From positions 1-52,090 of the forward strand of contig CADFHB010000005.1 of the NCBI GenBank assembly GCA_902834055.1: DNA of 52,090 nt, in the 5' to 3' direction. A program made the position numbers and the translations under genes. Below are positions 19,522 through 35,578 of this stretch, piece after piece; positions within the stretch are counted from its first letter, which is position 1, and each line of letters begins with the position of its first letter. The DNA comes from Lactobacillaceae bacterium (GTDB lineage: Bacteria > Bacillota > Bacilli > Lactobacillales > Lactobacillaceae). The notes beneath the pieces were generated by a model, which worked only from the letters and a program-made list of their open reading frames with translations, ran no database searches and was not told the origin of the DNA.

Positions 19522-19905
19522 CTAGCGTCTCCTCACAAGGGGTTTAAGACTCAGCAAGAACCCCGCGATAATGATAATGACCAGCACTAGGTTAATACTG
19601 GTAAATGAAACATTCTCAGTATGGAGCCCTTCACGAATGAAGGCGGCGGGGATAACCAGCAAGTTGGTCACCCCTTCGACCGCTAGTGCAACCACCGTAA
19701 CGATAACCGTATTGATTACGGTCAACCAACGATTAACGGTTCGGTGGCGCATTACTAGTGACCAGATAATCACTAGTAGCAACCAACAGGCAAAGAAGAG
19801 GTAACCGATATTGACCCGCATTTGCAACCAGGTGTCATTAAAAAGAAGGGTAGCAATCAAGAGACTCCATAAGAACGAGTTATAAATCCCAATAAGTAGT
19901 TTCAT
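19522..19905 (-). CDS. Small integral membrane protein of unknown function
   Basis: A 127-residue protein with four predicted membrane segments (about residues 5-22, 33-52, 62-82 and 103-120) and a basic C-terminus ending in RRR. I recognise no family. It begins four bases after the YdjY-domain gene's stop, so it is the third gene of the minus-strand set. Its context next to a TVP38 protein and a YdjY protein suggests a role in the same membrane-linked process. No strong ribosome site is seen, which fits translational coupling. Confidence 0.7.
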   Translation of the reverse strand: MKLLIGIYNSFLWSLLIATLLFNDTWLQMRVNIGYLFFACWLLLVIIWSLVMRHRTVNRWLTVINTVIVTVVALAVEGVTNLLVIPAAFIREGLHTENVSFTSINLVLVIIIIAGFLLSLKPLVRRR

Positions 19906-19909
19906 TAGT

Positions 19910-20563
19910 TTACTTTTCCGCGAGTTTAACGATCAGCGTAACGTGGGTACCATCCTTTGGCAGGACCTTTTGGTTACCGCGGAAGCTAACAACGTGGTTA
20001 GGTTCCGTTGAACCAGTTGGCCAAGCATGGTCAGAAACGATTCCCGTAGCACAGCTGTCAAAACAAACGACACAACCAGTGTTCATCGTCTTGGCCCGGC
20101 CCAAGTTACCACCGAAGCGGAAGTCGGTCTTGTACTTCTTTGAAGACTTAATGCTGTCTTGAACAGGGACCGCCTTGTGTCCCTTCCACTTGATGTAGAT
20201 GTTAAGCTTGCTACCTTGAACGCGCTTGCCCTGCCCCTTAGCAGCCTTCATATCAGCTGGGCGTAAATTGTTACCAGGTTTGGCACCAATTTTCTTGAGG
20301 GCGTTGTAGAAGGTGATTTCACTAACTTCACCGCGTAGGACGGCCTTATCACCATTGGACCCGTTTTTGTAAACGACCAGGTGCCGGGTTGGTTGGGTAA
20401 AGTAAGTACCATTGACAACGGCCGGGTACTCAACTTCCTTTTTTGCCTTGTTGACGGTAATTTTCTCATCAGCATAGGCGGTGTTTGATTGAGCAAGGCT
20501 CACGCCGATGGTTAGTAGAGACAGTGCCGCAGCAAATCCCACGAAGAGTTTCTTTAAGTTCAT
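19910..20563 (-). CDS. Secreted YdjY-domain protein with a Cys cluster
   Basis: A 217-residue exported protein. Residues 1-31 are a Sec signal peptide ending near 'AYADE'. The mature part holds the YdjY-type pattern, with 'VVYKNGSNGDKAVLRGEVSEITFYNALKKIGAKPG' and a cysteine cluster 'TGCVVCFDSCATG' (CxxCxxxC), suited to a metal or Fe-S site or to thiol chemistry outside the membrane. E. coli YdjY sits between two TVP38 genes, ydjX and ydjZ, and here too the neighbour is TVP38. AGGAGG lies nine bases before the ATG. Function is unknown in any organism to my knowledge. Confidence 0.75.
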   Translation of the reverse strand: MNLKKLFVGFAAALSLLTIGVSLAQSNTAYADEKITVNKAKKEVEYPAVVNGTYFTQPTRHLVVYKNGSNGDKAVLRGEVSEITFYNALKKIGAKPGNNLRPADMKAAKGQGKRVQGSKLNIYIKWKGHKAVPVQDSIKSSKKYKTDFRFGGNLGRAKTMNTGCVVCFDSCATGIVSDHAWPTGSTEPNHVVSFRGNQKVLPKDGTHVTLIVKLAEK

Positions 20564-20581
20564 TGTCTAGTTCCTCCTGAA

Positions 20582-21325
20582 TTAGTTTTTGTTATTAGCT
20601 TTTAGTTCATCATCTTGGTGACGGTTAACGTAAATCTTACGGAATAAGACTACTAGTGCCGAGAGGGCGAAGAGAATTAATAGGGCCATCGTAAACATCT
20701 TGGCACCGCCAACTAGCATCCCGCCGACGTATGAATAAATTACTGTGGCGGGGAGTTCACCGATTGCCGAAGCAATGATGAAGCCACTAAATGACATCGA
20801 GGTTAGTCCAGCGGCATAGCTGACGAGGTCAAATGAAATGAACGGTAATAGCCGGCAGATAATGATGCAGTTCCGACCATAACGGGCAAAGAAGCGGTCG
20901 ATTGACTGGAGCGCCGACTTGGTGGTGAGCTTTTCGACCGCGTCCCGGCCTAAAAAGCGGGCAATGTAAAAGCAGAGTGCCGCCCCAGCCAGTGAACTGA
21001 CCCAGGATAGCAACATTCCCTGCCACCAGCCAAAGAGACTCGCGTTCGCAAAGGTAACCAGGAAGGCCGGTAGTGGGGCCGCAACGCTTTGAAAAACCAT
21101 TAGGAAAAAAGAAATAACAGCAGCGTAAACCCCATATGAGGCAACAAAATCCTTCACAACGGTAAAATCACCGGAGCTAAACATATAAATAATTTGATTA
21201 CAAAAATACTTAACTGCGGGTATTGTGAAGTAAGTAATAATGCCAAGCAAAATAATAGCAATCGTTATCCATCGGCCTAGTCGGTAACTTTTCTTTGGGC
21301 TGGAAAGATTGGATGACGTATTCAA
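20582..21325 (-). CDS. TVP38/TMEM64 (DedA-like) membrane protein
   Basis: A 247-residue protein starting at a TTG (21325) that has AAAGGAGG seven bases upstream; the longer ATG frame (from 21424) has a poor, non-membrane N-terminus. It shows about five to six membrane helices. The SNARE-associated/VTT domain is seen in 'PLPAFLVTFANASLFGWWQGMLLSWVSSLAGAALCFYIARFLGRDAV' and 'CRLLPFISFDLVSYAAGLTSMSFSGFI'. The family moves or scrambles lipids or couples ion flux; substrates are mostly undefined. It is the first gene of the minus-strand set and divergent from the Fe-S/ABC operon. Confidence 0.85.
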   Translation of the reverse strand: MNTSSNLSSPKKSYRLGRWITIAIILLGIITYFTIPAVKYFCNQIIYMFSSGDFTVVKDFVASYGVYAAVISFFLMVFQSVAAPLPAFLVTFANASLFGWWQGMLLSWVSSLAGAALCFYIARFLGRDAVEKLTTKSALQSIDRFFARYGRNCIIICRLLPFISFDLVSYAAGLTSMSFSGFIIASAIGELPATVIYSYVGGMLVGGAKMFTMALLILFALSALVVLFRKIYVNRHQDDELKANNKN

Positions 21326-21514
21326 AGAGATTCCTCCTTTGGCAGCGCTCTCAAAATAAGCAAAAATAGGGCAAAAACTAATTGCGTTATTAGCTATTTT
21401 GGGATAATGTGAATAATGTATCAAGACTAATGAACATTTATTATCTTATCACTAAAAGTCACAAATGGAAGGCCACGTTTTTAAGTGGTCAAAGATCTAA
21501 GGGGAGAATTTTAG
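21326..21514. promoter_or_regulatory. Divergent promoter region of the ydj/ynj-like locus
   Basis: This AT-rich 189-base gap must carry promoters for both gene sets. A loose dyad, GTGAATAATG (about 21410-21419) against CATTTATTATCTTATCAC (about 21434-21451), could bind a regulator, but the arms differ by several bases. I cannot assign -35/-10 pairs with confidence. Both gene sets lying back to back suggests shared control. Confidence 0.45.
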
Positions 21515-21904
21515 ATGAAGTTTTCTCGACACACGAAAGCGCTTGCAAAAAATATCGTTGAGAATTGTACGGAGTGTGGACGTTGTATGCCAGACTGTCC
21601 ATTCTTGCAAGCCTACTGCAAGTCGCCCAAACAACTGTTTCAAAAATTTTTGGATGATGGTGACATTGACCCAGAAATCCCCTACTCGTGCCTCTTATGT
21701 GCCCACTGTACCCGGGTGTGTCCACAACAATTAAAGCTGGACGAAGCCTTTTACAGTATGCGTAAGGACCTGATTAAGAATAGTCGTAAGCGGCCGTTAA
21801 AGTCGTTGCGGGGAGTCTACTTTCACCAGCGCTTTTCGTATTGCTCACTATTTACAACGGTTAATAAGGGGCATGGTAAGGCAACGAGCAAGGAGGAAAA
21901 GTAG
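21515..21904 (+). CDS. HdrC-like ferredoxin with two [4Fe-4S] motifs
   Basis: A 129-residue protein with two cysteine motifs: 'CTECGRCMPDCP' (near residue 18) and 'CLLCAHCTRVCP' (near 59), both CxxCxxCxxxCP. This is the layout of HdrC, GlpC N-terminus and LutB-type electron-transfer subunits. The C-terminal about 45 residues are basic. AGGGGAG is eight to nine bases before the ATG. It ends two bases before the CCG-domain gene and must form a complex with it. It opens the plus-strand operon that continues to about 31.7 kb. Confidence 0.85.
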   Translation: MKFSRHTKALAKNIVENCTECGRCMPDCPFLQAYCKSPKQLFQKFLDDGDIDPEIPYSCLLCAHCTRVCPQQLKLDEAFYSMRKDLIKNSRKRPLKSLRGVYFHQRFSYCSLFTTVNKGHGKATSKEEK

Positions 21905-21906
21905 GA

Positions 21907-22662
21907 ATGAAATATGGATTTATGCCGGGCTGTTCACTAGCTTCCACTAGCCCAGAGAATGTTCAACATATTATTAATTACTTACAGGATTTATATCCCG
22001 ATTTAGCGATCATTGAAGCTTGTTGTGGCAAGCCGATGAAGATGATCGGTGAGACGGAAAAGTTTGAAAACCACTTTGCAAACCTTGCAGAGATGGTCCG
22101 TGATGCTGAAATTGACGACCTATTGTTGGCCTGTCAGAACTGCCTAAAGGTGATGACCGAAGAAAAGAAGTTTAAGGTCGATTCACTATGGGTAAAGATG
22201 GCGGAATGGGGGTTACCAGAAGAGTACCACAACAAGGCTAAGGACAGCGACGTGGTCTTTTCAATTCAAGACTCCTGTTCTGCACGTGACCGGACGGATG
22301 TCCAGCGGGCGGTCCGCCAAATTATGAAGTTCCTGGGGTATAAAGTCGCGCGCAACCGGTTATCCTTGCGTAATACCCTTTGCTGTGGCTTTGGTGGCAT
22401 GTGCGGTGTCTCAAACGCCCAGCTAAGCCACGAGGTCGCCCGTAAACGGGTACAGACCTTTAAGACGGACTACGTAGTTAGTTATTGCTCAAGCTGTACA
22501 CTGGCAATGTCAATTGGTGGTGCCCGGTCTTGGCACCTGCTGGACTTGATTTTTGGCCCCGTAGTTCACCTAGGAGATCAGCCTAAGCCGAATGACCTGG
22601 GAAACACGTTGAAGGCTTGGCAAAACCGCTATCGGACAAAGAAGATTATTCAAAAGGCATAG
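21907..22662 (+). CDS. HdrB-like Fe-S oxidoreductase with two CCG domains
   Basis: A 251-residue protein with two cysteine-rich CCG domains. The first runs Cys9, 'ACCGKP' (near 39) and 'CQNC' (near 77). The second runs 'QDSCSARDR' (near 123), 'LCCGFGGMC' (near 158) and 'YCSSC' (near 196). These match CX31-39CCX35-36CXXC, which in HdrB binds unusual [4Fe-4S] clusters that split disulfides. With the preceding ferredoxin it makes an HdrBC- or GlpC-like two-subunit reductase. The substrate is unknown; a disulfide, persulfide or similar sulfur compound is a reasonable guess given the neighbourhood. Confidence 0.85.
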   Translation: MKYGFMPGCSLASTSPENVQHIINYLQDLYPDLAIIEACCGKPMKMIGETEKFENHFANLAEMVRDAEIDDLLLACQNCLKVMTEEKKFKVDSLWVKMAEWGLPEEYHNKAKDSDVVFSIQDSCSARDRTDVQRAVRQIMKFLGYKVARNRLSLRNTLCCGFGGMCGVSNAQLSHEVARKRVQTFKTDYVVSYCSSCTLAMSIGGARSWHLLDLIFGPVVHLGDQPKPNDLGNTLKAWQNRYRTKKIIQKA

Positions 22663-22681
22663 AAATGGGGAGTAATTGAAA

Positions 22682-23947
22682 ATGAAGCAAAAGCGACACG
22701 CGCGGTGGCGATGGTTATTACTACTGGCTGCCTGTATGGTAGTGACGGTAACACTGACCGCATGTGGTAAGTCATCTAGCAGCCAATCTGGTACTGGTGA
22801 CAAAGTTACGACATTTAAGCATGCCGAAAAGACGGCCCGGGGTAAGGAAGTAACCTTCTATGGCTTTGGCGGAAACGAACAGGCCAACAAGTGGGTTGAT
22901 GAAATCGTTGCCCCAGCGATGAAAAAGAAGTATGACATCAAAGTTAAACGGGTCCCAATGGACATCGATAATATCTTAAATAAACTGGTGTCAATTAAAC
23001 AGTCTGGGAAGACCGGCAACATTGACGTAATCTGGATTAACGGTGAAAACTTCTATACCGCTAAAAAAGAGGGCCTCCTCTATGGGCCATTTGCCAACAA
23101 GGTCCCGAGCTTTAAGAACTTGATGTACACTAACGGTCACTATTCAAAGTATGATTTTGGGACACCAATTAAGGGTTACGAAGTGCCATACGGAACGGCG
23201 CAATTAACCTTCTTTGGTCGGCCGGGGGACTTTGATAACCATTTCCCAGATAGTGCCCAACAACTATTGGAGTATGCCAAGGCCCATCCTGGTAAATTAA
23301 CGTACACGGCGCCGCCGGAATTTACGGGGAGTGCCTTTGTCCGCAACGTGATCTGCAATATTGTTGGCTATAAGCGGGTGTACGATGCACCAGCGACGAA
23401 GGCCGGAATGTATAAGGCTATCAAGCCGGGCCTTGACTACCTTAATGAATTGAAGCCATACCTTTGGAAACAGGGGAAGACCTACCCGACGACGACGGCC
23501 CAACTGGATAAAATGTATGCGGCTCATCAGATCAACATGGACTTTAGCTATTCACCAACTCATGGGGCAGTTGAACGTGATGAACACCAGTTTAGTGCTG
23601 ACACCCAGCCGTTCTTCTTTAAGAAGGGTAACATTGCTAACGAAAGTTACTTAGCGATTGCCAACTCATCCGCTAACAAGGATGCTGCGTTGTTATTGAT
23701 CAACGAAATGACCAGTGAATCAGCACAAGTTAAAAAGGCGGAGGCAAAATATGGGTACTCACTGCCACCGTTTGACTACAGTAAGCTGACACCACAAAAC
23801 CGGCAAAAGCTAGAAAGTCTGTACACTAACAAGGGCGTGCCATCAGACCAAGAGTTACGCTCCCACCAAATTCCAGAAGTTCAGGCAAAAAAGATTGCTA
23901 TTATTGAGTCACTCTGGAAGGAACATGTCCTGCACGGGGATAATTAA
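22682..23947 (+). CDS. ABC importer substrate-binding lipoprotein, YnjB type
   Basis: A 421-residue lipoprotein, started at the ATG at 22682 (GGGGAG nine bases upstream) rather than a TTG two codons before. The signal ends at the lipobox 'TLTACGK' (Cys28). The mature protein contains 'VDIDNILNKLV'-like and 'GNIDVIWINGENFYTAKKEGLLYGP' blocks, followed by 'KGYEVPYGTAQLTF', which I recognise from the YnjB family (solute-binding family 1, Fe3+/spermidine/thiamine-like fold). The ligand of YnjB is not known. The stop overlaps the first permease start (TAATG). Confidence 0.85.
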   Translation: MKQKRHARWRWLLLLAACMVVTVTLTACGKSSSSQSGTGDKVTTFKHAEKTARGKEVTFYGFGGNEQANKWVDEIVAPAMKKKYDIKVKRVPMDIDNILNKLVSIKQSGKTGNIDVIWINGENFYTAKKEGLLYGPFANKVPSFKNLMYTNGHYSKYDFGTPIKGYEVPYGTAQLTFFGRPGDFDNHFPDSAQQLLEYAKAHPGKLTYTAPPEFTGSAFVRNVICNIVGYKRVYDAPATKAGMYKAIKPGLDYLNELKPYLWKQGKTYPTTTAQLDKMYAAHQINMDFSYSPTHGAVERDEHQFSADTQPFFFKKGNIANESYLAIANSSANKDAALLLINEMTSESAQVKKAEAKYGYSLPPFDYSKLTPQNRQKLESLYTNKGVPSDQELRSHQIPEVQAKKIAIIESLWKEHVLHGDN

Positions 23948-24816
23948 TGAAAAAGAAATATCTTTTATTGATCCTACCGTTTGTAGGTCTGAATAGCGTT
24001 GTAATTATTGCAGCGCTTTTTCAGTCTATTGCGATTAGTTTAGGCTACTACCCGGTAATTGGGTTGCGCCACTTAACGTTGTCTTATTATTTTGCTGTTT
24101 TTAGTGACCGTTACTTTGTCCGCTCGTTGATATATAGCCTTTATTTAGGCCTGGTTTCGACAGTCGGGGCCCTGGCATTGGGGTTAGTGATGGCGATGGC
24201 CTTAGAACGAGTGGCTGGTAACCACCGCTGGTTAGCACGCCTCTTTACGGTTCCAATTACCATCCCCCATATCATTGTCGCCTTGATGATCATGCAACTG
24301 TTGACCCAATCTGGGCTGGTGTCGCGGGTCGCCTACTACCTTCACCTAATATCTTCTATTGATGCCTTCCCATTATTAGTCAATGATCATTGGGGGACCA
24401 GTATTATCATTGTCTTCCTCTATAAAGAAATACCATACGTGGCGGTGACTATGTTGGCAATCTTGCGCCAGCTCCAGAGTGGCTACACCAGTGTGGCCCG
24501 CAATCTGGGGGCTTCACGGTGGCAGGCCTTTTGGCACGTCACGCTCCCGTTAGTTCAACCGACCCTGTTTACCCTATTTATCATTCTATTTTGCTTTACC
24601 TTTGCGAACTTCGAAGTACCGTATATTTTAGGTAACCCCGGCAATGAAACGATTGCTTTAACCATCTATGATCAATTTTTACAACCGGATTTACAGTCAC
24701 GGCCGGCAGCCTTTGCTTTAAACACAATATTGTCGGTGATTTGCCTGGCAGCAACGCTGTTAGCACTGTTAATTAGCCGGTTACTCCCTGGCGGAAAGGA
24801 CCGGTATCAAGAATGA
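23947..24816 (+). CDS. ABC importer permease 1 (YnjC N-terminal half type)
   Basis: A 289-residue permease with about six membrane helices. The EAA loop is visible as 'SVARNLGASRWQAFWHVTLPLVQPTL' (near residue 180). In E. coli YnjC two permease halves are fused in one polypeptide; here they are two genes, this being the first. The ATG shares a base with the upstream stop, and the stop overlaps the next start (ATGA), so translation is coupled. Confidence 0.85.
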   Translation: MKKKYLLLILPFVGLNSVVIIAALFQSIAISLGYYPVIGLRHLTLSYYFAVFSDRYFVRSLIYSLYLGLVSTVGALALGLVMAMALERVAGNHRWLARLFTVPITIPHIIVALMIMQLLTQSGLVSRVAYYLHLISSIDAFPLLVNDHWGTSIIIVFLYKEIPYVAVTMLAILRQLQSGYTSVARNLGASRWQAFWHVTLPLVQPTLFTLFIILFCFTFANFEVPYILGNPGNETIALTIYDQFLQPDLQSRPAAFALNTILSVICLAATLLALLISRLLPGGKDRYQE

Positions 24817-25601
24817 GAAAAAAAGTGGTAATTTTATGGTTAGCCAGCCTGATGGTACTGGTCCCAATCGTGATGATCATTTTATGGGCGGTAGCGGTCA
24901 AGTGGACTTATCCGGCGGTCTTGCCGAGTCAGTATGGCTGGCTGTATTTCCGGCGGGCATATGCTGACCCTAATTTCTGGCCTAGCATCTGGAATAGCAC
25001 GGTGATTGCCTTTGTTGCGACGGTAGTTACACTGGCAATTGCCTTACCAGCGTGTCGGTTTTTGACTATGCAACATTTGCTATCCGGGCGTCTGATTGAA
25101 TTCATCATTTACTTGCCGATGATCTTACCGGCAATTGCGATTGTGACATCAACCGAAACGGAATTCTTGCGCTGGCAACTGAGCGGGACTTACCTTGGGG
25201 TGGTCATCCTCCACGTTTTCTTTATGTTGCCCTACGCAATGCAGATTATGCTGGAAAGTTACCGGAAAATGGGGACGGCTTACCAGCTAACGGCTTATAA
25301 CCTCGGTGCCAACACCTGGCAAACGTTTTGGCGAGTAACGGTACCGCTACTGCGGCCGGGATTAATCGCCGCGGCCAGCCTGTGTTACATCATTTCATAT
25401 AGCCAATACCTACCGACCTTCTTCGTTGGTGATAGCAACATTATTACCTTGCCATTACTGCTGATTCCGTTTGCTAATAACGGTCGGTTTGGTGTTGGAT
25501 CAGTCTATAGCATTATTTTTATCGTGACGTCGTTAATTGGTGTCGGTGTGATTACAACTATTATTGGGGGTCGTCATGGGATTAAACGTCAAAGAAATTA
25601 G
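24813..25601 (+). CDS. ABC importer permease 2 (YnjC C-terminal half type)
   Basis: A 262-residue permease with about six membrane helices. The EAA loop reads 'LTAYNLGANTWQTFWRVTVPLLRPGL' (near residue 155). With the preceding gene it forms the heterodimeric channel for the YnjB-like lipoprotein. It starts in an ATGA overlap and its end overlaps the ATPase start by 26 bases. Confidence 0.85.
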   Translation: MRKKVVILWLASLMVLVPIVMIILWAVAVKWTYPAVLPSQYGWLYFRRAYADPNFWPSIWNSTVIAFVATVVTLAIALPACRFLTMQHLLSGRLIEFIIYLPMILPAIAIVTSTETEFLRWQLSGTYLGVVILHVFFMLPYAMQIMLESYRKMGTAYQLTAYNLGANTWQTFWRVTVPLLRPGLIAAASLCYIISYSQYLPTFFVGDSNIITLPLLLIPFANNGRFGVGSVYSIIFIVTSLIGVGVITTIIGGRHGIKRQRN

Positions 25602-26583
25602 TTATCGTTATGGGAAACGACCAGTTGTTAAGGATGTTTCGTTTACGGTCAATGAGGGGGAGATTGTTACCCTATTTGGGCCGTCCGGGGCGGGGAAAAC
25701 AACGATTTTAAAGATGATCGCGGGACTATTGACTCCCCAGACCGGGACCGTTGAATTTACCGGTAATAATTGCCGTGCTAATACCCTGCTGGTCTTTCAA
25801 GACTACCTCTTATTTCCGCACATGACGGTTCGTGAAAACATTGCTTTTGGCTTAAAAATACGCCATGTTGCGCGCGCTGAAGTACGCCAGCGGGTGGCAG
25901 AGATGGTGACCGAATTTCAATTAGCTGGGTTAGAAAAGCAGTATCCAGCCCAGTTATCCGGTGGACAGCAGCAGCGGGTTGCACTGGCCCGGGCAATCAT
26001 TTTACGCCCCAAGCTCCTCTTGTTGGATGAGCCATTCTCCAGCCTGGATGGTAACTTGCGCCAGCAAATGTATGCTTACCTGCGGCGACTGCAGGCACGG
26101 TATCACTTTGCCGTTATCATGGTCAGCCATGACCAACAGGAAACCTTCTTACTGTCTGACCGGGTAGTGGTGATTGCCAACCACCAGGTCCAACAGGTGG
26201 CTAGTCCGCAAAAATTGTATACCCAGCCAGTAAGTCGGTTGGTGGCCGACCTGTTAGGGTGTTTTAACTACCTTCGGGGGACGGTGAAAGGCACTAGCTT
26301 TCAAGTGGGTACCAGCCAATTAACAGTTGCCAACCCAGACCACCTGCAAGGGACGGTGGAACTATTAGTGCCGTTTACCTGTAAGGCAACGCTTCGCAAG
26401 GACGGTGACTTATTAGCGACGGTTAAAGATGTATTTTGGCAGCCGGCTGGGCCGACCGTGGTCTTTCAGGTTGATAACCAGCGGCTTGAACTACGGCAAA
26501 CGGCCTTTACCCAGGAATTAGCGGCTGGCACCCAGGTCCACCTTGACTTGCCGGCCGGGGGCCGGGTGGTTCGATGCCATTAG
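25576..26583 (+). CDS. ABC importer ATPase (YnjD type)
   Basis: A 335-residue ATPase, started at the ATG at 25576, which sits inside the end of permease 2. Walker A is 'LFGPSGAGKTTILKM' (near 37), the Q-loop 'LLVFQDYLLFPHMTV', the signature 'LSGGQQQRVALARAI' and Walker B 'LLLLDEPFSSLDG', with the switch His in 'MVSHDQQE'. After residue 235 there is a C-terminal TOBE-like beta domain, usual in ATPases of the iron/spermidine type and possibly regulatory. All catalytic residues are present. The last ten bases overlap the glycosyltransferase gene. Confidence 0.9.
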   Translation: MGLNVKEISYRYGKRPVVKDVSFTVNEGEIVTLFGPSGAGKTTILKMIAGLLTPQTGTVEFTGNNCRANTLLVFQDYLLFPHMTVRENIAFGLKIRHVARAEVRQRVAEMVTEFQLAGLEKQYPAQLSGGQQQRVALARAIILRPKLLLLDEPFSSLDGNLRQQMYAYLRRLQARYHFAVIMVSHDQQETFLLSDRVVVIANHQVQQVASPQKLYTQPVSRLVADLLGCFNYLRGTVKGTSFQVGTSQLTVANPDHLQGTVELLVPFTCKATLRKDGDLLATVKDVFWQPAGPTVVFQVDNQRLELRQTAFTQELAAGTQVHLDLPAGGRVVRCH

Positions 26584-27275
26584 TATCAGTTATTATTCCT
26601 ACCCTGAATGAGGAGAAAAACCTTGGTCGATTGCTGGACCAGCTACCGGCGGTATGTGCTGACATAAGTTATGAGGTGGTAGTGGTGGATGCTGATAGTC
26701 ACGATTACACAACCCGTGTTGCGAGTCAGCACGGCGCCCGGGTGGTTGAAACAGCCAAGGGGAACCGGGGCCGTCAGTTGCGGCTTGGTGTCCGGCACAG
26801 TTGCGGGGAGTACCTGTGGTTTCTTCACGCCGACGTGCAACTAAGGGCCTATCCACACCTGGGTCGCCGCCTGACGCGAGCGGTTGATGGTGGGGCCGTG
26901 GCTGCTTGTCTTCGCCTTAACTATGTTCAATCAGGGTTCTTCTACCGTTTTTTGGCGGTCAGTTCTAACTGGCGGGCCCGTCACCTTGGCCTAATTTTTG
27001 GTGACCAGGGCCTCTTTGTTAGCCGGGAGATGTACGACCGGGTGGGGGGCTTTCCTGATGAACCATTGATGGAGGACTGGATTTTAAGCAAGAAGTTGGC
27101 TTGCTGTGGGTACTTTGCCCAGTTGCCAGACCAGATCCAGGCATCTAATCGCAAGTATGCCCAGCACCCCTGGCGTGTTCACGCTAAGTTAATGGGAATC
27201 AAGGCCTTATTTCTTTGCGGTGTTTCCCCACAGAAATTGGCCCAGCTTTACTATGGAAAGGACCGACAGCAATGA
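26574..27275 (+). CDS. Family 2 glycosyltransferase of the TIGR04283 type
   Basis: A 233-residue GT-A enzyme. 'VSVIIPTLNEEKNLGRLLDQL' opens the nucleotide-binding fold; 'VVVVDADSHDYT' and 'LWFLHADVQ' supply the Asp residues (DxD equivalent is H-A-D near 85); 'GGFPDEPLMEDWILSKKL' is the acceptor-side ED motif. In other bacteria this subfamily is named for arsenosugar biosynthesis because it lies beside arsM/arsS and a TIGR04282 protein. Here the TIGR04282 partner is present two genes on but no arsenic gene is, so the arsenic label should not be carried over. Confidence 0.8.
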   Translation: MPLVSVIIPTLNEEKNLGRLLDQLPAVCADISYEVVVVDADSHDYTTRVASQHGARVVETAKGNRGRQLRLGVRHSCGEYLWFLHADVQLRAYPHLGRRLTRAVDGGAVAACLRLNYVQSGFFYRFLAVSSNWRARHLGLIFGDQGLFVSREMYDRVGGFPDEPLMEDWILSKKLACCGYFAQLPDQIQASNRKYAQHPWRVHAKLMGIKALFLCGVSPQKLAQLYYGKDRQQ

Positions 27276-28291
27276 CAAAGCAAGCACAGTTGATTGAACG
27301 AATCAAACACTACCTGGCCCAACATGGCCTTATTGAGCGGTTGCACCTGGCTCAACCGGTGCGGGTTCAATTCCTGGCCCAGGGTGAGTATAACCAGAAC
27401 TTTTTGATCGATGCGGGAGACCACCAGTACGTTTTTCGGTTAAACTATGGGAGCCAGATTAATGCCAGCAACCAGATCCGCTACGAATATAACGCACTTA
27501 AGTGGTTGGAACGTTCCGGCTGCACACCGCGGGGGTACTATGTTGATGACCGCAAACGCGACTTTGACCAGGGCCTCTTGATTATGGAATTCTTGCACGG
27601 GCATCCCCTGGACTACCGAACTGATATGCAGACGGCGGCCGGGATCTTTGGCCGCATTCACCAGTTGGCAGTTGACCGGCCGGCCGCTACCAACCTGATT
27701 GCAGAAAAGGATAATATCTTACGGGCCCGGGTAGCAGAATGCCAGCAACTATTAGCACCGGTTTGGGGGAGCCACTTTGTCCCTCGGCATGCCCAGAACG
27801 TGTTGGAAAAAGCTCTGGACCGGTGCCAACAAAACGTTGGTCAGGAAGCTTTTTTCAGCGACCAACAGTTGTGGCGGGTTAACAATACCGAGGTCAATTC
27901 CCATAACTTTATCATTGGTCGGCAGGGCTGGCTAATTGACTGGGAAAAGCCGGTAATCAGTCACCCGGTTCAGGATATCTCGCAGTTTTTAGCATCAACG
28001 ACGACCCTCTGGCGGACTGATATTCGCTTGGATCAGACTACCAAACGGGCTTTTATCGACAAGTACCTGGCAATGACGGGCTTTGACCGGGAGGCATTCT
28101 TAACGGCCTTGCGGATTTACCATCCCTACTTAATGCTGCGGGCATTGTCTTGGTCAGCAATGGCACTAGACGAGTATGCCAGTGGGGAAAAGCAGTTACA
28201 AAACCAAGAAATTTACCGTAAGGTTACCCAGTACATGCAAGATGATTTTATTGACCACGCAATTAAGGAGCAGGTGCTCGATGAAAAATGA
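27272..28291 (+). CDS. APH/choline-kinase-fold phosphotransferase with altered catalytic loop
   Basis: A 339-residue protein, started at the ATG at 27272 in an ATGA overlap with the glycosyltransferase. The N-lobe has 'FLAQGEYNQNFLID' and 'YVFRLNYGSQ', where R replaces or neighbours the usual ATP-binding Lys, and 'GLLIMEFLHGHPL' is the hinge. The catalytic loop, normally HxDxxxxN, reads NTEVNSHN (near residue 210), so the general base Asp is Glu and the His is Asn; 'WLIDWEKPVISHPVQDIS' keeps the metal-binding Asp. It may phosphorylate a sugar that the neighbouring DUF2064 protein activates, by analogy with AmgK-MurU. Activity cannot be assumed. Confidence 0.75.
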   Translation: MTKQAQLIERIKHYLAQHGLIERLHLAQPVRVQFLAQGEYNQNFLIDAGDHQYVFRLNYGSQINASNQIRYEYNALKWLERSGCTPRGYYVDDRKRDFDQGLLIMEFLHGHPLDYRTDMQTAAGIFGRIHQLAVDRPAATNLIAEKDNILRARVAECQQLLAPVWGSHFVPRHAQNVLEKALDRCQQNVGQEAFFSDQQLWRVNNTEVNSHNFIIGRQGWLIDWEKPVISHPVQDISQFLASTTTLWRTDIRLDQTTKRAFIDKYLAMTGFDREAFLTALRIYHPYLMLRALSWSAMALDEYASGEKQLQNQEIYRKVTQYMQDDFIDHAIKEQVLDEK

Positions 28292-28940
28292 CAAAGCCTA
28301 TATAATCTTTACCCGCATCCCCACTCCTAACAAGTGTAAGACCCGGCTGACGCCAACCTATACCGGCCAGCAGGCCAGCAGTGTCCAGGCCGACCTATTA
28401 GCTGACCTATTAGCTAGTGCGGCCCAGTTACCCTCAGCGGGAGTGGAAGTCTTACTAGCGTACTCTGACGAACAAGACCCAGCCGCTTTTTTAGCGGACT
28501 TACCGGCGTTTGTTACTGCCTTTCCCCAACACGGAGATAACATTGGTCAGCGGATGAATAACGCCTTTGCAGATGCCTTCGCCCGTGGCTACCAGGAAGT
28601 AGTTTTGACTGGCAGTGACCTCCCACAACTGACGGCCACCACGGTTGAGCGAGCCTTTCAAGTTATGAAGGAGGTTGTAATTGGCCCCAGTGTTGACGGC
28701 GGTTATTACCTCATTGGTGCGCAACGGGGGATTGATTTGACCCCACTGTTTAATGCTGCAATTGACTGGGGGCATTCAACCGTTCTCCAGTCGACCCTTA
28801 GTCGGGTGGCCGGGCATGATGTGCAATTGCTGGCCGCGCAGACCGATGTGGATAGTCCCGCTGACTTGCAGGTGGCCCGGCGCCAGCTCGATGATCATAA
28901 CAGCCGACTTCGTCTATGGTTTAAGGAGGAAAATGAATGA
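28281..28940 (+). CDS. DUF2064/TIGR04282 GT-A-fold protein
   Basis: A 219-residue protein, started at the ATG at 28281 inside the end of the kinase gene. 'AYIIFTRIPTPNKCKTRLTP' resembles the G-x-KTRL loop of nucleotidyltransferases such as CofC and MobA; 'VVLTGSDLPQLTATTVERAF' carries the metal-binding Asp, and 'VIGPSVDGGYYLIGAQ' is the family hallmark. The fold suggests transfer of a nucleotide or sugar. It is the usual partner of TIGR04283 glycosyltransferases. Ends in an ATGA overlap with the next gene. Confidence 0.8.
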   Translation: MKNDKAYIIFTRIPTPNKCKTRLTPTYTGQQASSVQADLLADLLASAAQLPSAGVEVLLAYSDEQDPAAFLADLPAFVTAFPQHGDNIGQRMNNAFADAFARGYQEVVLTGSDLPQLTATTVERAFQVMKEVVIGPSVDGGYYLIGAQRGIDLTPLFNAAIDWGHSTVLQSTLSRVAGHDVQLLAAQTDVDSPADLQVARRQLDDHNSRLRLWFKEENE

Positions 28941-29839
28941 GTGAAAAAGTGATCTTGGATTGTGACTGCACCTTTGACCTACCAGGCTGTGACGTTGACG
29001 ATGGCCTAACTATCATTTACCTGTTGGGATCGACCAATATCGACCTGCTCGGGGTTACCCTCGACCATGGTAATAGTGACTGGGCGGGGGTCTTGGCAGC
29101 AACCCGGCGGCTTAAAGAGCACCTTTGCCTGCCGTTTAACTATTACTTTGCACCGGACACGGGTGAAGAACCTGATGAAGCTGCTAGGGACTTCCTTGTC
29201 CGAATGGTTAATACCTATCCCCATGAAATCACCCTCCTGGGGACGGGGGGCCTTACCAACATCAAACGGGCCGTAGCGACTGACCCCCTTTTTCTGAACA
29301 AGGTCAAGCGGGTTGTCTTGATGGGGGGGGATTGCTTCCCGTTGGTCATTAATGGCCATGAGGTTGGTGAGCTTAACTTTTCAATTGACCCGGCAGCTAC
29401 CCAATTGATCTTGGCCAGCAGTGTGCCGCTGGTGATCATGAACGGGCACATGACCACTGAAGCCCTGTTTTCCCAGCACTTTAACCAACAACTGACCACC
29501 CACTTGCAGGAACAATTGCCCACTGACCAGTACCGGTACTTCACGACGGCAATCAACGAGTGGATTGCCGTCCAGCAGCGGGATCTGGGGTTAGACGGCT
29601 TCTGTAACTGGGACATTACGACGGCTGTCTATTTGGAGCAGCCGGAACTGTTTACCGCTGAGCGGGTCTTCCTGGCGGCTAACCAGCCAGCATTGGCGAG
29701 TGTGGGCCGCCTGCAATTAGTTGATTACTCATCCCGGTTGGTAACGATGCCGGCTCACATTAAGGACCCGCTGGCCTTTAACAACCTCATTTACCGCCGC
29801 TTGCTCGCTGGTCTGCAGGGGAATAAGGGGGCCCAGTAA
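28937..29839 (+). CDS. Nucleoside hydrolase-fold protein
   Basis: A 300-residue member of the inosine/uridine nucleoside hydrolase family. The N-terminal calcium site, normally DxDxGxDD, is 'DCDCTFDLPGCDVDDGL' (residues 8-24), an expanded and cysteine-rich version that keeps the terminal Asp pair. 'VLMGGDCF' and 'ELNFSIDPAATQLIL' match the NH core (the usual 'EFN...DPEAA'), and 'NWDITTAVYLEQPELF' replaces the usual 'HDPxAV' with Asp kept. It could cleave an N-glycosidic bond in a nucleoside-like compound made or taken up by this operon. ATGA overlap on the left, one-base gap on the right. Confidence 0.82.
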   Translation: MSEKVILDCDCTFDLPGCDVDDGLTIIYLLGSTNIDLLGVTLDHGNSDWAGVLAATRRLKEHLCLPFNYYFAPDTGEEPDEAARDFLVRMVNTYPHEITLLGTGGLTNIKRAVATDPLFLNKVKRVVLMGGDCFPLVINGHEVGELNFSIDPAATQLILASSVPLVIMNGHMTTEALFSQHFNQQLTTHLQEQLPTDQYRYFTTAINEWIAVQQRDLGLDGFCNWDITTAVYLEQPELFTAERVFLAANQPALASVGRLQLVDYSSRLVTMPAHIKDPLAFNNLIYRRLLAGLQGNKGAQ

Positions 29840-29840
29840 A

Positions 29841-30515
29841 ATGAAAAAGATTATTATCTTCCTCGTTGTGTTTATCCTGGTTTTGCTTGCCGCTTACCAG
29901 CTGGGGTTGACCAGGCTATTAACCGACTTTAACCAATTGCGGGCCCTGATCCAGGGGAGTGGCTGGTGGGGCTACTTAATCTTTATCGCCCTGTCCATCT
30001 TTACCTCGGTCTTCCTGCTACCAGGGCAGCTGCTGGCGATCGTCGGTGGTATTTGTTGGGGCGGTTTCATTGGTGGTGCCCTGACGGTGATTGGTGCCAC
30101 GATTGGTTGTTCGGTTTCCTTTGTCCTGGGGAAGTACGTTGCCCGTGACTACATCGTGGAAAAGATGGGTGATAGTCCCACCTTCAAGAAAATTGAGCGG
30201 GGGGTGCGGGAGAACGGAACGACCTTTTTAATTTTCACCCGATTGGTGCCCGTTTTCCCATATGCTATCCAGAGCTATGCTTATGCACTAACCCCGATGA
30301 CAACCCGAAAGTTCACGGTGATCTCCTTTTTGACAATGATGCCGGCCTGCTTTATCTATTCCTATTTAGCAGCCCAGATCTTAAAGGATGGCCTTTCACC
30401 AAAGCTCTTCTTAGACTTGACCATCGCGGGGATTCTTTTAGCGGGTCTTTCGATGTTGCCTAAGCTAAGCAAACGGTTACGACGGTTAAGCAATGAGTAC
30501 CAAAATAAGGGATAG
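29841..30515 (+). CDS. TVP38/TMEM64 (DedA-like) membrane protein, second copy
   Basis: A 224-residue protein with five to six membrane helices. 'FLLPGQLLAIVGGICWGGFIGGALTVIGATIGCSVSFVLGKYVARDYI' and 'FTRLVPVFPYAIQSYAYALTPMTTRKFTV' are the VTT-domain signature. It is diverged from the copy at 20.6 kb, so the two probably do different steps, like YdjX and YdjZ in E. coli. It begins one base after the nucleoside-hydrolase stop and is the last intact gene of the operon. Confidence 0.85.
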   Translation: MKKIIIFLVVFILVLLAAYQLGLTRLLTDFNQLRALIQGSGWWGYLIFIALSIFTSVFLLPGQLLAIVGGICWGGFIGGALTVIGATIGCSVSFVLGKYVARDYIVEKMGDSPTFKKIERGVRENGTTFLIFTRLVPVFPYAIQSYAYALTPMTTRKFTVISFLTMMPACFIYSYLAAQILKDGLSPKLFLDLTIAGILLAGLSMLPKLSKRLRRLSNEYQNKG

Positions 30516-31688
30516 GGCGCGAACCGGTTGCCCAGATTGACGTTGCGGTTTCGGCGAATGTTTTTAAAAATGCGCTGGCGGTCATCGTTCCTGGTACCGG
30601 CGAAGCGGGGTTGCCGGTTGCGGCGGCCATTGGCTACTTGGTGGGTAACCCCACTGCCGGCTTAGGGGTTATCCCCCGCGTGACGGCCGCTCTATGTGAC
30701 CAGGTAAAGAAACTGGCCCACTCTGGGAAGGTTCGTGTGACTGTGGCTGATGTGGAAGAGAAGCTCTATGTGGCGGTCCGGGTAACTACGGTTACTGGGC
30801 ATACCGCCTGTGCCAACATTGCCGGTAGCCACACCAACATTTACCTGGTTAAACATGATGACCAGGTAGTTATTGACCGGGGAAAGCCGACGGCGGCTAA
30901 GCCGAGTAGCTGGTTGGCCTTCATCCGGCAGACTAATCTCGCGGACATCTGGAACTTTGCGACGACTGCCCCGCTGGACCAGCTAGAATTTATAACGGCC
31001 ACGAAAGACTACAACATGGCCCTGGCACGGGAAGGGCTTAACCACCAGTATGGGATGGGCGTTGGTCGGGCCCTCAATAATCCTGACGGCCTCGGTGAAA
31101 CGACGACCCTCACTAACCAGGTTGTGGCGCAAACCGCGGCTGCTGCGGACGCCCGGATGGGGGGGCCAGCTGTTAGCAGCCACAAATTCAGGCTCCGGTA
31201 ACCAGGGGATTACGGCAACTGTACCGGTTTGCGTGGTGGCTGACCACTGGCATTCGTCACCAGAACAACTGGTCCGGGCATTAACCCTTTCCCACCTGAC
31301 CTTAATCTATATACACTCCTTTTTGCCGAGTTTAACGGCTTACTGTGCAACCCATGCGGCGGCAATGGGAGCCGCGACTGGAATCTGTTACCTAGCCGGT
31401 GGCAGCGTTGCTGATGCTGGCCGGGCAATTAAAATCATGGTCGGTGATGCCAATGGGATGATTTGTGACGGGGCTGGTTGCTCATGTGCTGTCAAGGTGT
31501 CAACCTCCGTTCAGACGATGCTCAAGGCCGTCAACATGGCCTTACAAGGGATCACCATCCCGGCGACGAACGGGGTTGTTAGCGAATCAGTTGATGATAC
31601 AATCCGGGATCTCGGACGGCTGACCGGTGAGGGGATGGCCGCTACCGATTCGGTTATTCTGAAGATCATGCAGGCTAAAAAACATTAA
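30516..31688 (+). pseudogene. Broken L-cysteine desulfidase (UPF0597, CyuA-like)
   Basis: Two reading frames together give about 390 residues of a UPF0597/cysteine desulfidase protein, an Fe-S enzyme that turns cysteine into pyruvate, ammonia and sulfide. Frame 2 carries 'REPVAQIDVAVSAN', 'VIVPGTGEAGLPVAAA' and 'IAGSHTNIY'; the next frame carries 'AATNSGSGNQGITATVPV' and 'MICDGAGCSCAVKVSTSV'. The frame changes at a run of seven G (31159-31165), where six would restore 'RMGGQLLAATNSGSGN'. In addition the first about 45 codons, including the GCTEP motif and the start, are absent: homology begins right at the TVP38 stop. Two independent lesions make this a true pseudogene even if the G run is an error. 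Confidence 0.85.
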
Positions 31689-31742: not shown

Positions 31743-31762
31743 TTATGTATAATGACCAGATT

Positions 31763-33378: not shown

Positions 33379-33405
33379 AATGTTATCCAGTAAGTGTAGC
33401 GGTGT

Positions 33406-34398
33406 CTAGAGCCGTGCAGCCAGCTTACTGTTTATCAGCCGGGCAAGCCGGTCCGTGAGCATGAAACCGACCACGATGAAAATAAGGGCGAGCCAGCCCT
33501 GGACGGAAAGCATTGCGGTGTAGACTAATCCGTTTGAGGTAAAGGTTCCCTTAGAAAGACCGGCACCAAGGCCCATCAAGAGGCCACCGCCGAGTGCGCG
33601 AATTAAGGTTATAAGACTAACTGCCCGCCAACGAAACTGCCGCTGGCAAAGTGAGGACAGTAGTGAGCCAACAATGATACTGGCAGTGAAGTACATTCCC
33701 CAGCTAACGCTGATCCCGGCGCCCCGGCCCTTAATGAAACCATACCAGGTAAGGAGGGGATTGACCACGGCAAAGCTACCAAAACCTCCTGCTAACGAAT
33801 TTGCCAGGAAGGCTAGTCCGGCAAGGAGGCCAATACCAACCGCCACAGCAAGGAACCAGTAGGCTGACCGGCTAACTGACCGGGTCTTAAAGTACCAAGT
33901 CAGTCCAGCCCCGGTGATAACTAGGAGGACCAGGAGTGAGACCGGGAAAGCGTAGTGGGTAGCTTGTAGCCAGGTATCGCTAACCAGGTTGTTGCCGGTT
34001 AAAGCATCAAGGCTCTTGCTAAAGAGGCCCCGATTGTAGAAGACGAGGGTCAAGATAAAGGTAACTAGCGTGAGCAAGGCGTTGCCATCCAGGGCCCCAA
34101 GGTCAACTAAACAGTCAATCATGCAACCGGCACTGAGCTGCATTCCACAACCGAAGATGAGGCTGCCGCAGATGACTGCAGATGGCGAGTAGTCGGGATT
34201 GTCGGGTAACGTTACGACATTAACACTGACGAGCCCCCAAAGGACCAGACTTGCGATGAGGATAATGACCAGGATGTTTAGCCACCCAGCCGATTGCTGA
34301 CTGGTTAGACCGGGCCGGAGTTCATGTGCAAAGTTGAACTGGCTTTGACGGAGGAGAAAGCCAAGCACAAAACCGAAGATAATGCCTGTTTGGATCAT
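33406..34398 (-). CDS. YeeE/YedE-family sulfur (thiosulfate) transporter
   Basis: A 330-residue protein with about nine to ten membrane segments, started at the ATG at 34398 (TAGGTGG just upstream); a GTG three codons earlier is less likely. The duplicated family motif is visible as 'FGFVLGFLLRQSQFNFA' near the start, 'SLIFGCGMQLSAGCMIDCL' (near 100) and 'GGLLMGLGAGLSKGTFTSNGL' (near 280). In YeeE (TsuA) conserved cysteines relay thiosulfate through the pore; here Cys residues occur in the 'GCGMQLSAGCMIDC' repeat, but the second repeat lacks one ('GLSKGTF'). It is divergent from a secreted rhodanese. Confidence 0.82.
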   Translation of the reverse strand: MIQTGIIFGFVLGFLLRQSQFNFAHELRPGLTSQQSAGWLNILVIILIASLVLWGLVSVNVVTLPDNPDYSPSAVICGSLIFGCGMQLSAGCMIDCLVDLGALDGNALLTLVTFILTLVFYNRGLFSKSLDALTGNNLVSDTWLQATHYAFPVSLLVLLVITGAGLTWYFKTRSVSRSAYWFLAVAVGIGLLAGLAFLANSLAGGFGSFAVVNPLLTWYGFIKGRGAGISVSWGMYFTASIIVGSLLSSLCQRQFRWRAVSLITLIRALGGGLLMGLGAGLSKGTFTSNGLVYTAMLSVQGWLALIFIVVGFMLTDRLARLINSKLAARL

Positions 34399-34443
34399 AA
34401 TAACCACCTAATTTTAAAAGAATTTGTTAAACCAAATTAATTA

Positions 34444-34472
34444 TTGCACAGATACCCGGTTGGTGGTATGAT
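34444..34472 (+). promoter_or_regulatory. Promoter of the rhodanese gene
   Basis: TTGCAC (34444-34449), 17 bases, TATGAT (34467-34472). CCGGTTG occurs twice nearby (34457 and 34478), 21 bases apart, a possible regulatory repeat. Confidence 0.65.
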
Positions 34473-34534
34473 AAATCCGGTTGAAAGAGCTTACATACTA
34501 GTGCAGATTAGCTAATTGAGGAGGAGTTTCACTT

Positions 34535-35578
34535 ATGACTAAATTTCTTAAATGGGTGGGGGTCGTACTGGGTGGCCTATTGATGGGCTTCCTGTTTACT
34601 AATGGCACTACCCACGCAGCCAGTCAAGAAAGTCATTTTGTTAAAGAAGACCAACAGATTACGGATAATACATATTACATCACTGCTAAGCAGGCTCAGC
34701 AGTTGAAGAAGCAAAACCCGAATACCGTTGTTTTGGCGGTTGCCTATGGTAAGGTGCCGGGCTTTGCGAAGGGCCACATCCCTGGTGCGGTTCAGATGAG
34801 TACCAACGAAGTGGAAAGCCAGGCTAACCACTGGAACATTCTAGATGCCAGCCAGTTACGGAAGAACTTCTTGAAGAAGGGGGTTACCGCTAACACACCG
34901 ATCATTGTTTATTCCCCAGATATTTCGGCTGCTTCCCGGGTGGCTTTTGCGGCCTACTGGTTAGGGGTTAAGGATGTTAAGATCATTGATGGTGGACAGC
35001 AGGCATGGAAGAAGGCCGGCTTACCGCTACAAAAGAAGAGTGTTAAGGCACAAAAACAGACTGACTTTGGTAGTAACACCGTTGCCCACCCAGAAGCGTT
35101 GATTAAGACGCCAGCGGAATTGGTTCAAGCGGAAAAGAAGAATCCCGACCTGAAGCTGGTAAGTACCCGTTCCTGGAAGGAATACATTGGTGATATTAGT
35201 GGTTACTCCTACATTAAGGAAACAGGTGAACCTAAGGGGGCCATCTACGGCCGAGTAAGTAAGAGTAGCAGTGATGTTGCCTACTTGACTAACGCTGACG
35301 GGACTGTTAAGAACCCCCAGGCAGAACTGGCATACTGGAAGAAGAAGGGGATCACGCCAGATCAAGAAGTGGTCTTCTACTGTGGGACCGGTTGGCGTGC
35401 TTGTGTACCGTTCTTCATCGCTAAGGAAGAGGGCTTTAAGAACGTCCAAATTTACGATGGTGGTTGGTATGACTGGAATATGAGCCACAAGAAGGATCCA
35501 AAGAAGTACCAAGTTCAAAAGGGCGCACCAGGTTCCAAGAACTTTAAGATTGAAAAGACCGTTTCCGTAGAACGTTAA
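34535..35578 (+). CDS. Secreted two-domain rhodanese (sulfurtransferase, YnjE-like)
   Basis: A 347-residue exported protein. The signal peptide covers about residues 1-29 ('GVVLGGLLMGFLFTNGTTHAAS'). Rhodanese domain 1 (about 45-165) has 'GHIPGAVQMSTNEVE' and 'IIDGGQQAWKKAGLP', but its loop 'YSPDISAASR' has no Cys, so it is structural. Domain 2 (about 185-325) has the active loop 'FYCGTGWRACVPFF' with catalytic Cys. An exported tandem rhodanese with a CGTGWR loop recalls E. coli YnjE, whose gene follows ynjBCD. It would transfer sulfane sulfur outside the membrane and is divergent from the YeeE/YedE transporter. GAGGAGG precedes the ATG. Confidence 0.88.
   Translation: MTKFLKWVGVVLGGLLMGFLFTNGTTHAASQESHFVKEDQQITDNTYYITAKQAQQLKKQNPNTVVLAVAYGKVPGFAKGHIPGAVQMSTNEVESQANHWNILDASQLRKNFLKKGVTANTPIIVYSPDISAASRVAFAAYWLGVKDVKIIDGGQQAWKKAGLPLQKKSVKAQKQTDFGSNTVAHPEALIKTPAELVQAEKKNPDLKLVSTRSWKEYIGDISGYSYIKETGEPKGAIYGRVSKSSSDVAYLTNADGTVKNPQAELAYWKKKGITPDQEVVFYCGTGWRACVPFFIAKEEGFKNVQIYDGGWYDWNMSHKKDPKKYQVQKGAPGSKNFKIEKTVSVER

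Follow-up and report, generated by a model that had tools for sequence, protein, structure and literature searches.

Within a 52,090-nucleotide stretch of contig CADFHB010000005.1 from a Lactobacillaceae bacterium (GCA_902834055.1), referred to here in its entirety as the window, two divergent sets of genes, located on the minus (19522–21424) and plus (21515–30515) strands, include a YnjB-type transporter and a group of genes for sugar activation. In the reading that we prefer, and which we hold tentatively, the plus operon encodes an importer-fed pathway for a 5-modified pentose (5-X-5-deoxypentose), leading from a purine nucleoside to an activated, probably lipid-linked pentose. The transporter (YnjBCCD) would import a purine-nucleoside-like compound or its close relative, probably with sulfur, selenium, or arsenic at the 5′ end. 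A nucleoside hydrolase would then remove the purine, an APH-fold kinase would phosphorylate the freed sugar, most likely at C1, a DUF2064 protein would make a nucleotide-sugar, and a GT2 enzyme would pass the sugar on to an acceptor that is probably polyprenyl phosphate or some other lipid. At least one of the two VTT proteins may carry the lipid product across the membrane, with the exported YdjY and rhodanese proteins presumably acting on its far side, while an HdrCB pair would give reducing power for a thiol-like group. Every substrate and product in this scheme, as well as the order of the steps, the lipid attachment, and the flipping, is what we infer from the genes, motifs, and neighborhoods described below.

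Genes of the transporter and of the sugar pathway

The genes of the plus set overlap or nearly so. The YnjB-type substrate-binding lipoprotein (22676–23947) scores 385 bits with NF008633 (cut-off 203), includes a lipobox-like LTAC in its sequence, and has an AlphaFold model with a predicted local distance difference test (pLDDT) value of 88. It is followed by two ABC permeases, each representing a YnjC-type half (23947–24816, 74 bits, and 24813–25601, 35.8 bits, with PF00528 (BPD_transp_1), cut-off 26.4), and by an ABC ATPase in the role of YnjD (25564–26583; PF00005 (ABC_tran), 128 bits, cut-off 25). The sugar genes come directly after that, on the same strand. They comprise the GT2 glycosyltransferase (26574–27275; TIGR04283, 200.7 bits, cut-off 182), the APH/choline-kinase-fold small-molecule kinase (27272–28291; APH, 46.4 bits, cut-off 23.2), the DUF2064 nucleotidyltransferase-like (CofC-like) protein, with a solved relative 3cgx (28281–28940; TIGR04282, 170.7 bits, cut-off 134), and the nucleoside-hydrolase-fold protein (28937–29839; PF01156 (IU_nuc_hydro), 113.5 bits, cut-off 34.2). 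The likely starts of the kinase (about 27272) and of the DUF2064 protein (about 28281) lie downstream of the starts of the listed open reading frames (ORFs).

The plus set begins with an HdrC-like protein that has two 4Fe-4S sites (21515–21904; Fer4_8, 36.5 bits) and an HdrB-like protein with two CCG sites (21907–22662; PF02754 in two stretches, 59 bits, cut-off 20.6), and ends with the second VTT/TVP38 membrane protein (29841–30515; PF09335, 91.3 bits, cut-off 33.9). The HdrB-like protein also scores 183 bits, across part of the model and below its cut-off, with NF045663, a fused NAD(P)/FAD-dicluster family that has the NCBI short name diclust_near_Sec. Some HdrB relatives, among them those in L023 and L129, carry a fused NAD(P)/FAD domain, and these two are over the NF045663 cut-off. 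On the minus strand, the other VTT/TVP38 membrane protein of the DedA superfamily (20582–21424, start uncertain; PF09335, 97.4 bits, cut-off 33.9) is accompanied by a secreted YdjY-domain protein (19910–20563; NF040466, 147.7 bits, cut-off 50) that carries the motif TGCxxCxDSC. The motif (T or S)GC-x2-C-x-DSC is found in 14 of the 15 YdjY relatives listed, with FSC replacing DSC in the remaining one. An exported two-domain rhodanese (34535–35578, plus strand; PF00581 in two stretches, 92 bits, cut-off 22.2) lies 4 kb beyond the plus operon, with other genes intervening. It is YnjE-like, since a profile built from relatives of the window protein gives 295 bits for E. coli YnjE.

All genes that a sequence-only reading of this DNA had named are present at these positions, and Pfam and NCBIfam scans place them over curated cut-offs where models exist; the resemblance of the lipoprotein to YnjB, claimed in the same reading, is borne out by its NF008633 score.

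In the nucleoside hydrolase, a tryptophan precedes the last Ca-binding aspartate (W225–D226). Both residues are kept in 30/30 aligned proteins, and they align with the H-D pair of the two best solved matches. A tryptophan at that site marks the purine-specific group II nucleoside hydrolases (PMC8910321).

Conservation of the neighborhood

Species genomes were searched with a YnjB profile, and the best 80 of at least 586 relatives were taken as loci. Neighbors were counted in about 10 kb around ynjB, less at contig ends, with score thresholds that we set ourselves (e.g., 120 and 50 bits for DUF2064). The 80 loci span Lactobacillales, other Bacilli, Clostridia, Desulfobacterota, Spirochaetota, Eggerthellaceae, and others, and the genes found near ynjB encode VTT proteins (47 loci), the hydrolase (30), the kinase (29), HdrB (29), GT2 (23), DUF2064 (21), and rhodanese (20). 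Gene order and strand differ widely among the lineages while the same families re-assemble across phyla, and the linkage therefore goes beyond the common inheritance of a single segment.

An independent sample consisted of 398 Bacillota genomes. YnjB is over the cut-off in 30 of them (a match in G188, below the cut-off, was left out), and TIGR04283 is found at E 1e-40 in 28, of which 26 are over the cut-off. The two occur together in seven genomes, approximately 3 kb apart in six and on separate contigs in the seventh (G087); by our own estimate for these genome sizes, two genes placed at random would be 10 kb or less apart in roughly 1% of cases. E. coli is the sole control genome with NF008633. 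The kinase adjoins the transporter without GT2 in L058, a full-length stretch, and in the shorter L062, L067, and L069; the hydrolase does so in the full-length L015 and in the shorter L020 and L070. Since each of them adjoins the transporter without GT2, the kinase and the hydrolase look tied to the imported compound. The neighborhood is real and widespread, and the expectation that it would extend beyond one strain holds, with recurrence in lactobacilli, enterococci, Clostridia, Desulfobacterota, Spirochaetota, and Eggerthellaceae.

YnjF and the sugar genes as alternatives

Two forms of the ynjB locus are distinguished here, form A with YnjF and form B with at least one of GT2, DUF2064, kinase, and hydrolase. 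A YnjF-type cytidine-diphosphate (CDP)-alcohol phosphatidyltransferase is present in 31 of the 80 loci and at least one sugar gene in 38, whereas no locus has both and 11 have neither (Fisher p 4e-13). The YnjB tree is a better guide than the Fisher value, because the latter ignores shared descent. In this tree (82 rows, including the window and E. coli), the distribution of the two labels requires at least 10 changes, or 13 when unlabelled rows are counted, 9 of them forced by well-supported branches; the tree was built by a quick method with only Shimodaira–Hasegawa-like approximate likelihood-ratio support (SH-aLRT), and E. coli YnjB and L083 form long branches in it.

On the genome-wide level, TIGR04283 at E 1e-40 is present in 0/31 form-A genomes and elsewhere in 4/11 genomes with neither form. 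A strong YnjF-type match is found elsewhere in 2/38 form-B genomes (L071, 163 bits, and L083, 190 bits) and a weak one in a third (L067, 48.9 bits). The 30 YnjB loci of the Bacillota sample are divided into 18 with YnjF only, nine with sugar genes only, one with both (L133), and two with neither, both of which come from contigs shorter than 9 kb. Strict mutual exclusion is ruled out by L133 and by the two form-B genomes with strong YnjF-type matches. The evidence that YnjF and the sugar genes are near-exclusive alternatives is strong, although the rule is not absolute. The sugar genes, which the sequence-only reading had regarded as an extension of the locus, do belong to the operon, but across the 80 loci they are mostly an alternative to YnjF.

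Residues D68, D71, D88, and D92 of the YnjF family are kept in 31/31 proteins, and four such aspartates are the conserved motif of CDP-alcohol phosphotransferases. The scanned YnjF-type proteins, from L012 and E. coli, are nearest to archaetidylinositol- and phosphatidylinositol-phosphate synthases, below the cut-off. No YnjF-type profile match is present in the window, and there is none at E 1e-10 in G001, the nearest genome examined, with three form-A controls matched at 252–317 bits.

Methylthioadenosine phosphorylase in actinobacterial DUF2064 loci

A search of 296 Actinomycetota genomes for TIGR04282 gave 74 with a match and 82 places listed. Twenty of these places, hand-picked mainly for long contigs, were read, and 16 are below the TIGR04282 cut-off. 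A methylthioadenosine phosphorylase is present in 8/20 loci, which is not a random-sample rate, together with a GalE-like protein in 16 and a GT-C-like membrane protein in 11; the kinase and the hydrolase are found in 0/20. The profiles for the phosphorylase, GT-C-like, and GalE-like proteins were built from members of the same loci and match those by construction, and the term GT-C-like was assigned by eye, with a single protein scanned and no Pfam or NCBIfam match. As an independent check, five phosphorylases were scanned with NCBIfam, which placed two over cut-offs and gave MTAP as the best match, below the cut-off, for the other three. With the profile, the phosphorylase is found in 0/143 other loci, including 0/80 YnjB loci and 0/33 further stretches, and there is none in the window.

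Methionine salvage employs either one phosphorylase or a nucleosidase plus a kinase. We take Rv0535 to be a methylthioadenosine phosphorylase, Rv0536 a GalE-type enzyme, Rv0540 a DUF2064 protein, and MtxS a GT2 enzyme. In the simplest reading, by analogy, the hydrolase and the kinase would replace the phosphorylase in reaching pentose-1-phosphate, which DUF2064 would activate and GT2 would move on. Methylthioadenosine is described as the starting point for methylthioxylose (MTX), with the donor linked to decaprenyl phosphate (PMC11127046), and MtxS forms MTX-P-C50 (PMC8780516); the transfer of 5-thio-pentose outside lipoarabinomannan is called unclear (PMC11127046). In the open-licence literature, we found nothing joining any two of MtxS, Rv0540, methylthioribose, DUF2064, arsenosugar, and ynjBCD.

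Gene set common to ArsS loci

The radical SAM protein ArsS (TIGR04167) is over the cut-off in 11/398 Bacillota genomes. TIGR04283 is found at E 1e-40 in 10 of these 11, within the ArsS stretch in nine and on another contig in G025. The 12 ArsS stretches include DUF2064 (11), GT2 (8, at 130 bits or more), an AhpD-like protein (7), VTT (7), rhodanese (3), HdrB (3), and YdjY (1), with the kinase and the hydrolase in 0/12. A single operon of a Lachnospiraceae genome (L171) combines ArsS with the kinase, DUF2064, GT2, VTT, rhodanese, HdrB, and an AhpD-like protein, while ynjBCD and the hydrolase occur at a separate place in that genome (L020). ArsS is present in 4/15 form-B genomes in which the ynjB locus is without GT2 and in 0/23 in which the locus has GT2. 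L120 includes a protein that resembles, by eye, an arsenite methyltransferase, and in a control genome, that of Synechococcus elongatus, TIGR04282, TIGR04283, and ArsS are all over the cut-off. In the synthesis of arsenosugars, a radical SAM enzyme adenosylates arsenic (PMC12159101, which has ArsS in the title of one of its references). A route proposed for microalgal arsenolipids, with a shape like that of the pathway put forward here, adds arsenic to the ribosyl of S-adenosylmethionine, with a nucleosidase removing adenine before lipid attachment (PMC10456119).

A further 12 TIGR04283 stretches are without ArsS or YnjB, although L131 comes from a genome with YnjB elsewhere. They include a C_GCAxxG protein in seven cases and VTT in 10. 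Radical SAM proteins other than ArsS are present in at least seven, ArsS-like (76–84 bits) in three and BioB-like in four; of these seven, L139, L140, L141, and L142 were scanned, and the others were judged by eye or by profile. Scans also confirmed flippase-like LPG_synthase_TM proteins for L139 and L140. In L136 and L139–L142, TIGR04283 or DUF2064 is found with C_GCAxxG, LPG_synthase_TM, and ArsS-like or BioB-like radical SAM proteins, and these stretches are possibly a further branch of the same pathway family. On replicons of Roseomonas and Miltoncostaea (L181 and L182, respectively), DUF2064 is accompanied by radical SAM genes and a phosphonate-type (PhnD) binding protein. The Roseomonas locus also has a permease and an ATPase, and the Miltoncostaea locus is located about 5 kb from selD and selA; these loci are another importer class with the same module.

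Assessment of the proposed pathway and its alternatives

Several observations weigh against the 5-modified-pentose pathway. The kinase has N-T-E-x4-N where H-x-D-x4-N, the catalytic motif of APH kinases, is expected, with the glutamate kept in 30/30 proteins and the last asparagine in 29/30. Its fold neighbors are choline (LicA included), homoserine, and N-acetylhexosamine kinases, and no methylthioribose kinase is found among the fold matches listed, a result that excludes nothing; a search of the kinase sequence against solved structures gave no match. The second active-site tryptophan of group II hydrolases, in the β3–α3 loop, is not conserved in the hydrolase alignment. A fold search with the YnjB model places sugar, polyamine, and other binding proteins at close Z (28.7–26.4), with no ligand class singled out. 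Only one of the 17 ArsS stretches overall has the kinase and none has the hydrolase, so that 16/17 have neither, and L134 has the sugar genes in a genome with no YnjB match. The DUF2064 proteins linked to the eight phosphorylases score 98–131 bits, all below the TIGR04282 cut-off, although the same eight pass Pfam DUF2064. The GT2 near at least 5/8 phosphorylase loci reaches just 28–34 bits with our own profile, and two such actinobacterial proteins that were scanned score 40 and 46 bits with TIGR04283, being nearer to dolichyl-phosphate sugar transferases. Because the actinobacterial DUF2064 proteins are below the cut-off and the GT2 matches are weak, we hold the preferred reading at lower confidence; and as the actinobacterial GT2 is distant from TIGR04283, the argument is one of pathway logic rather than of orthology.

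Other explanations account for parts of the same data. In a Kennedy-type headgroup pathway, an imported alcohol or polyol would be put on a phospholipid, either by YnjF, joining it to CDP-diacylglycerol, or through the APH kinase and DUF2064, making first a phospho-alcohol and then a nucleoside-diphosphate-alcohol. The conserved aspartates of YnjF, the nearness of two such proteins to inositol-phosphate lipid synthases (below the cut-off), the homoserine and choline kinase neighbors of the kinase fold, LicA included, and the near-exclusion of the two gene sets all agree with this explanation, yet it assigns no role to GT2 or to the nucleoside hydrolase, and both sets are present in L133; we consider this pathway unlikely. 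The same gene set would also be expected if the imported compound were the acceptor, with the hydrolase freeing ribose from an ordinary purine nucleoside and the kinase, DUF2064, and GT2 attaching this ribose to the import. While the persistence of the importer in some genomes with ArsS (L020, L040, L056, and L074) would be accounted for in this way, the location of the hydrolase and of the kinase beside the transporter without GT2 is a better fit to direct action on the cargo, and we consider the acceptor role quite unlikely.

True arsenosugar metabolism is suggested by the NCBI names of TIGR04282 and TIGR04283, both called arsenosugar biosynthesis glycosyltransferases, by the large part of the gene set that is common to ArsS loci, by the co-occurrence in Synechococcus elongatus, and by the methyltransferase-like protein of L120. 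However, ArsS was not found in G001 (90% complete), has no profile match in the window, and was not found in 34/38 form-B genomes, while 18/28 Bacillota genomes with TIGR04283 are without ArsS over the cut-off. Additionally, TusA-like proteins are encoded near YnjB in 8/30 and 4/80 loci (threshold 50 bits), compared with 0/12 ArsS stretches, a distribution that favors sulfur or selenium for the importer-fed forms, with arsenic as a possible cargo element. We regard arsenosugar metabolism proper as very unlikely here. That the genes are unrelated and share no common pathway, as their greatly varying order among lineages might suggest, is hardly credible, since the same families re-assemble in differing orders and strands across phyla, and YnjB and TIGR04283 lie about 3 kb apart in six of the seven genomes with both.

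The function given to the locus in the sequence-only reading is partly supported. Its combination of import, sulfur-like redox chemistry, and sugar attachment is still conjectural, although the pathway logic now comes from the ArsS and methylthioadenosine phosphorylase contexts. New here are the near-exclusion of YnjF and the sugar genes, the gene set common to ArsS loci, and the actinobacterial methylthioadenosine phosphorylase context.

We can speculate further, although we regard the wider claim as doubtful, that YnjBCD might be the importer of a widespread scavenging route for 5′-S-, Se-, or As-substituted purine nucleosides or pentosides, in which either YnjF (by phosphatidyl transfer) or the kinase, DUF2064, and GT2 (by glycosyl transfer) would finish the compounds as membrane lipids moved by VTT proteins. 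If true, such a route would assign a function to the orphan ydjXYZ-ynjABCDEF locus of E. coli, for which no substrate was found named, and so give it particular reactions that can be tested, would supply candidate downstream enzymes for arsenosugar lipids, and would show a methylthioxylose-like pathway outside mycobacteria. The gene set offers candidates for the enzymes that act downstream of ArsS and for those that transfer 5-thio-pentose outside lipoarabinomannan. The NCBI name of TIGR04283, arsenosugar biosynthesis glycosyltransferase, covers many genomes free of ArsS, as in the Bacillota sample.

Neighboring genes

The minus set ends with a small membrane protein (19522–19905), for which Pfam and NCBIfam scans gave no match; its relatives adjoin YdjY in two clostridial loci (L052 and L053). 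Between the plus operon and the rhodanese are located an apparently broken gene of the serine-dehydratase-alpha type, an SDF transporter, and a YeeE/YedE-type sulfur or selenium transporter (33406–34407, minus strand; PF04143, 144.6 bits), which is likely associated with the cluster. The first of these (30611–31688) consists of two overlapping ORFs in different frames, the second of which matches serine dehydratase alpha (PF03313), and looks like one interrupted gene; in L128, from the nearest genome, a serine-dehydratase-type gene is likewise in two pieces. In L129, L133, and L138, YeeE is seemingly split, with a TusA-like gene between its halves, near ynjB (L129 scanned, the others by eye), and the proteins of L129 are nearest to the YedE/FdhT and YeeD families, below the cut-off.

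The rhodanese is followed by a TetR-type gene (35677–36264, PF00440), and the region after that (36370–40725) includes an acyl-CoA dehydratase activase-type protein and two more overlapping ORFs, possibly a single long gene that has been interrupted or frameshifted; the same three ORF sizes are found in L128. A small membrane protein of about 130 residues comes right after the rhodanese gene in Agrilactobacillus, Enterococcus, and Vagococcus (L005–L009), and LysR-type regulators, identified by eye, adjoin the cluster in several Clostridia (L013, L023, L072, L133, and L138). A 9-nucleotide inverted repeat in the divergent intergenic region was not taken as an operator, and an Rfam scan of the window at gathering thresholds gave nothing beyond one transfer RNA.

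Comparison with known systems

The hydrolase of the window shares with the group II purine-specific nucleoside hydrolases the tryptophan before the last Ca-binding aspartate, and differs from them in the additional residues that separate the first Asp pair from the DD pair (D8, D10 ... D21, D22).

Clusters with ArsS have in common with the window TIGR04282 and TIGR04283, both over the cut-off in the window, as well as, in part, VTT, rhodanese, and HdrB or an FAD oxidoreductase. They differ in relying on radical SAM synthesis rather than on import, in the AhpD-like protein present in 7/12, and in the near absence of the kinase (1/17) and absence of the hydrolase (0/17).

In the MTX capping of mycobacterial lipoarabinomannan, involving MtxS and MtxT, polyprenyl phosphate receives a 5-modified pentose that originates from a purine nucleoside, and the actinobacterial loci in which DUF2064 is accompanied by methylthioadenosine phosphorylase and GalE-like genes look similar to this system. 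The window, in contrast, has the hydrolase and the kinase instead of the phosphorylase, adds an importer, and gave no match when searched with the phosphorylase, GT-C-like, and GalE-like profiles.

In E. coli K-12, ydjX, ydjY, ydjZ, ynjA, ynjB, ynjC, ynjD, and ynjE lie in a row, with ynjF divergent. YnjB of E. coli scores 559.9 bits with NF008633, and its YdjY and YnjF also fall within the families found here. A BaeR regulon table lists ynjABCD (PMC2731931), and ynjE and ydjY appear in a YgfI table (PMC9068703). No substrate for ynjB, ydjY, or YdjX-YdjZ was found named in the excerpted open-licence literature, in which we also found nothing linking TVP38 with selenium and rhodanese, or TVP38 with arsenosugars. 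The sequence-only reading had called the window a counterpart of this locus, and that description stands for the two VTT proteins, YdjY, the YnjB-type transporter, and the YnjE-like rhodanese, but not for YnjF or the AhpD-like YnjA. The latter was not found among the proteins scanned at 19522–35578, and the window has no match to the ArsS-type AhpD profile. Additionally, YnjC is a long single protein in E. coli and is represented by two halves in the window. A 24-kb stretch of E. coli around the locus includes no match to the GT2, kinase, DUF2064, or hydrolase profiles, whereas the window has all four.

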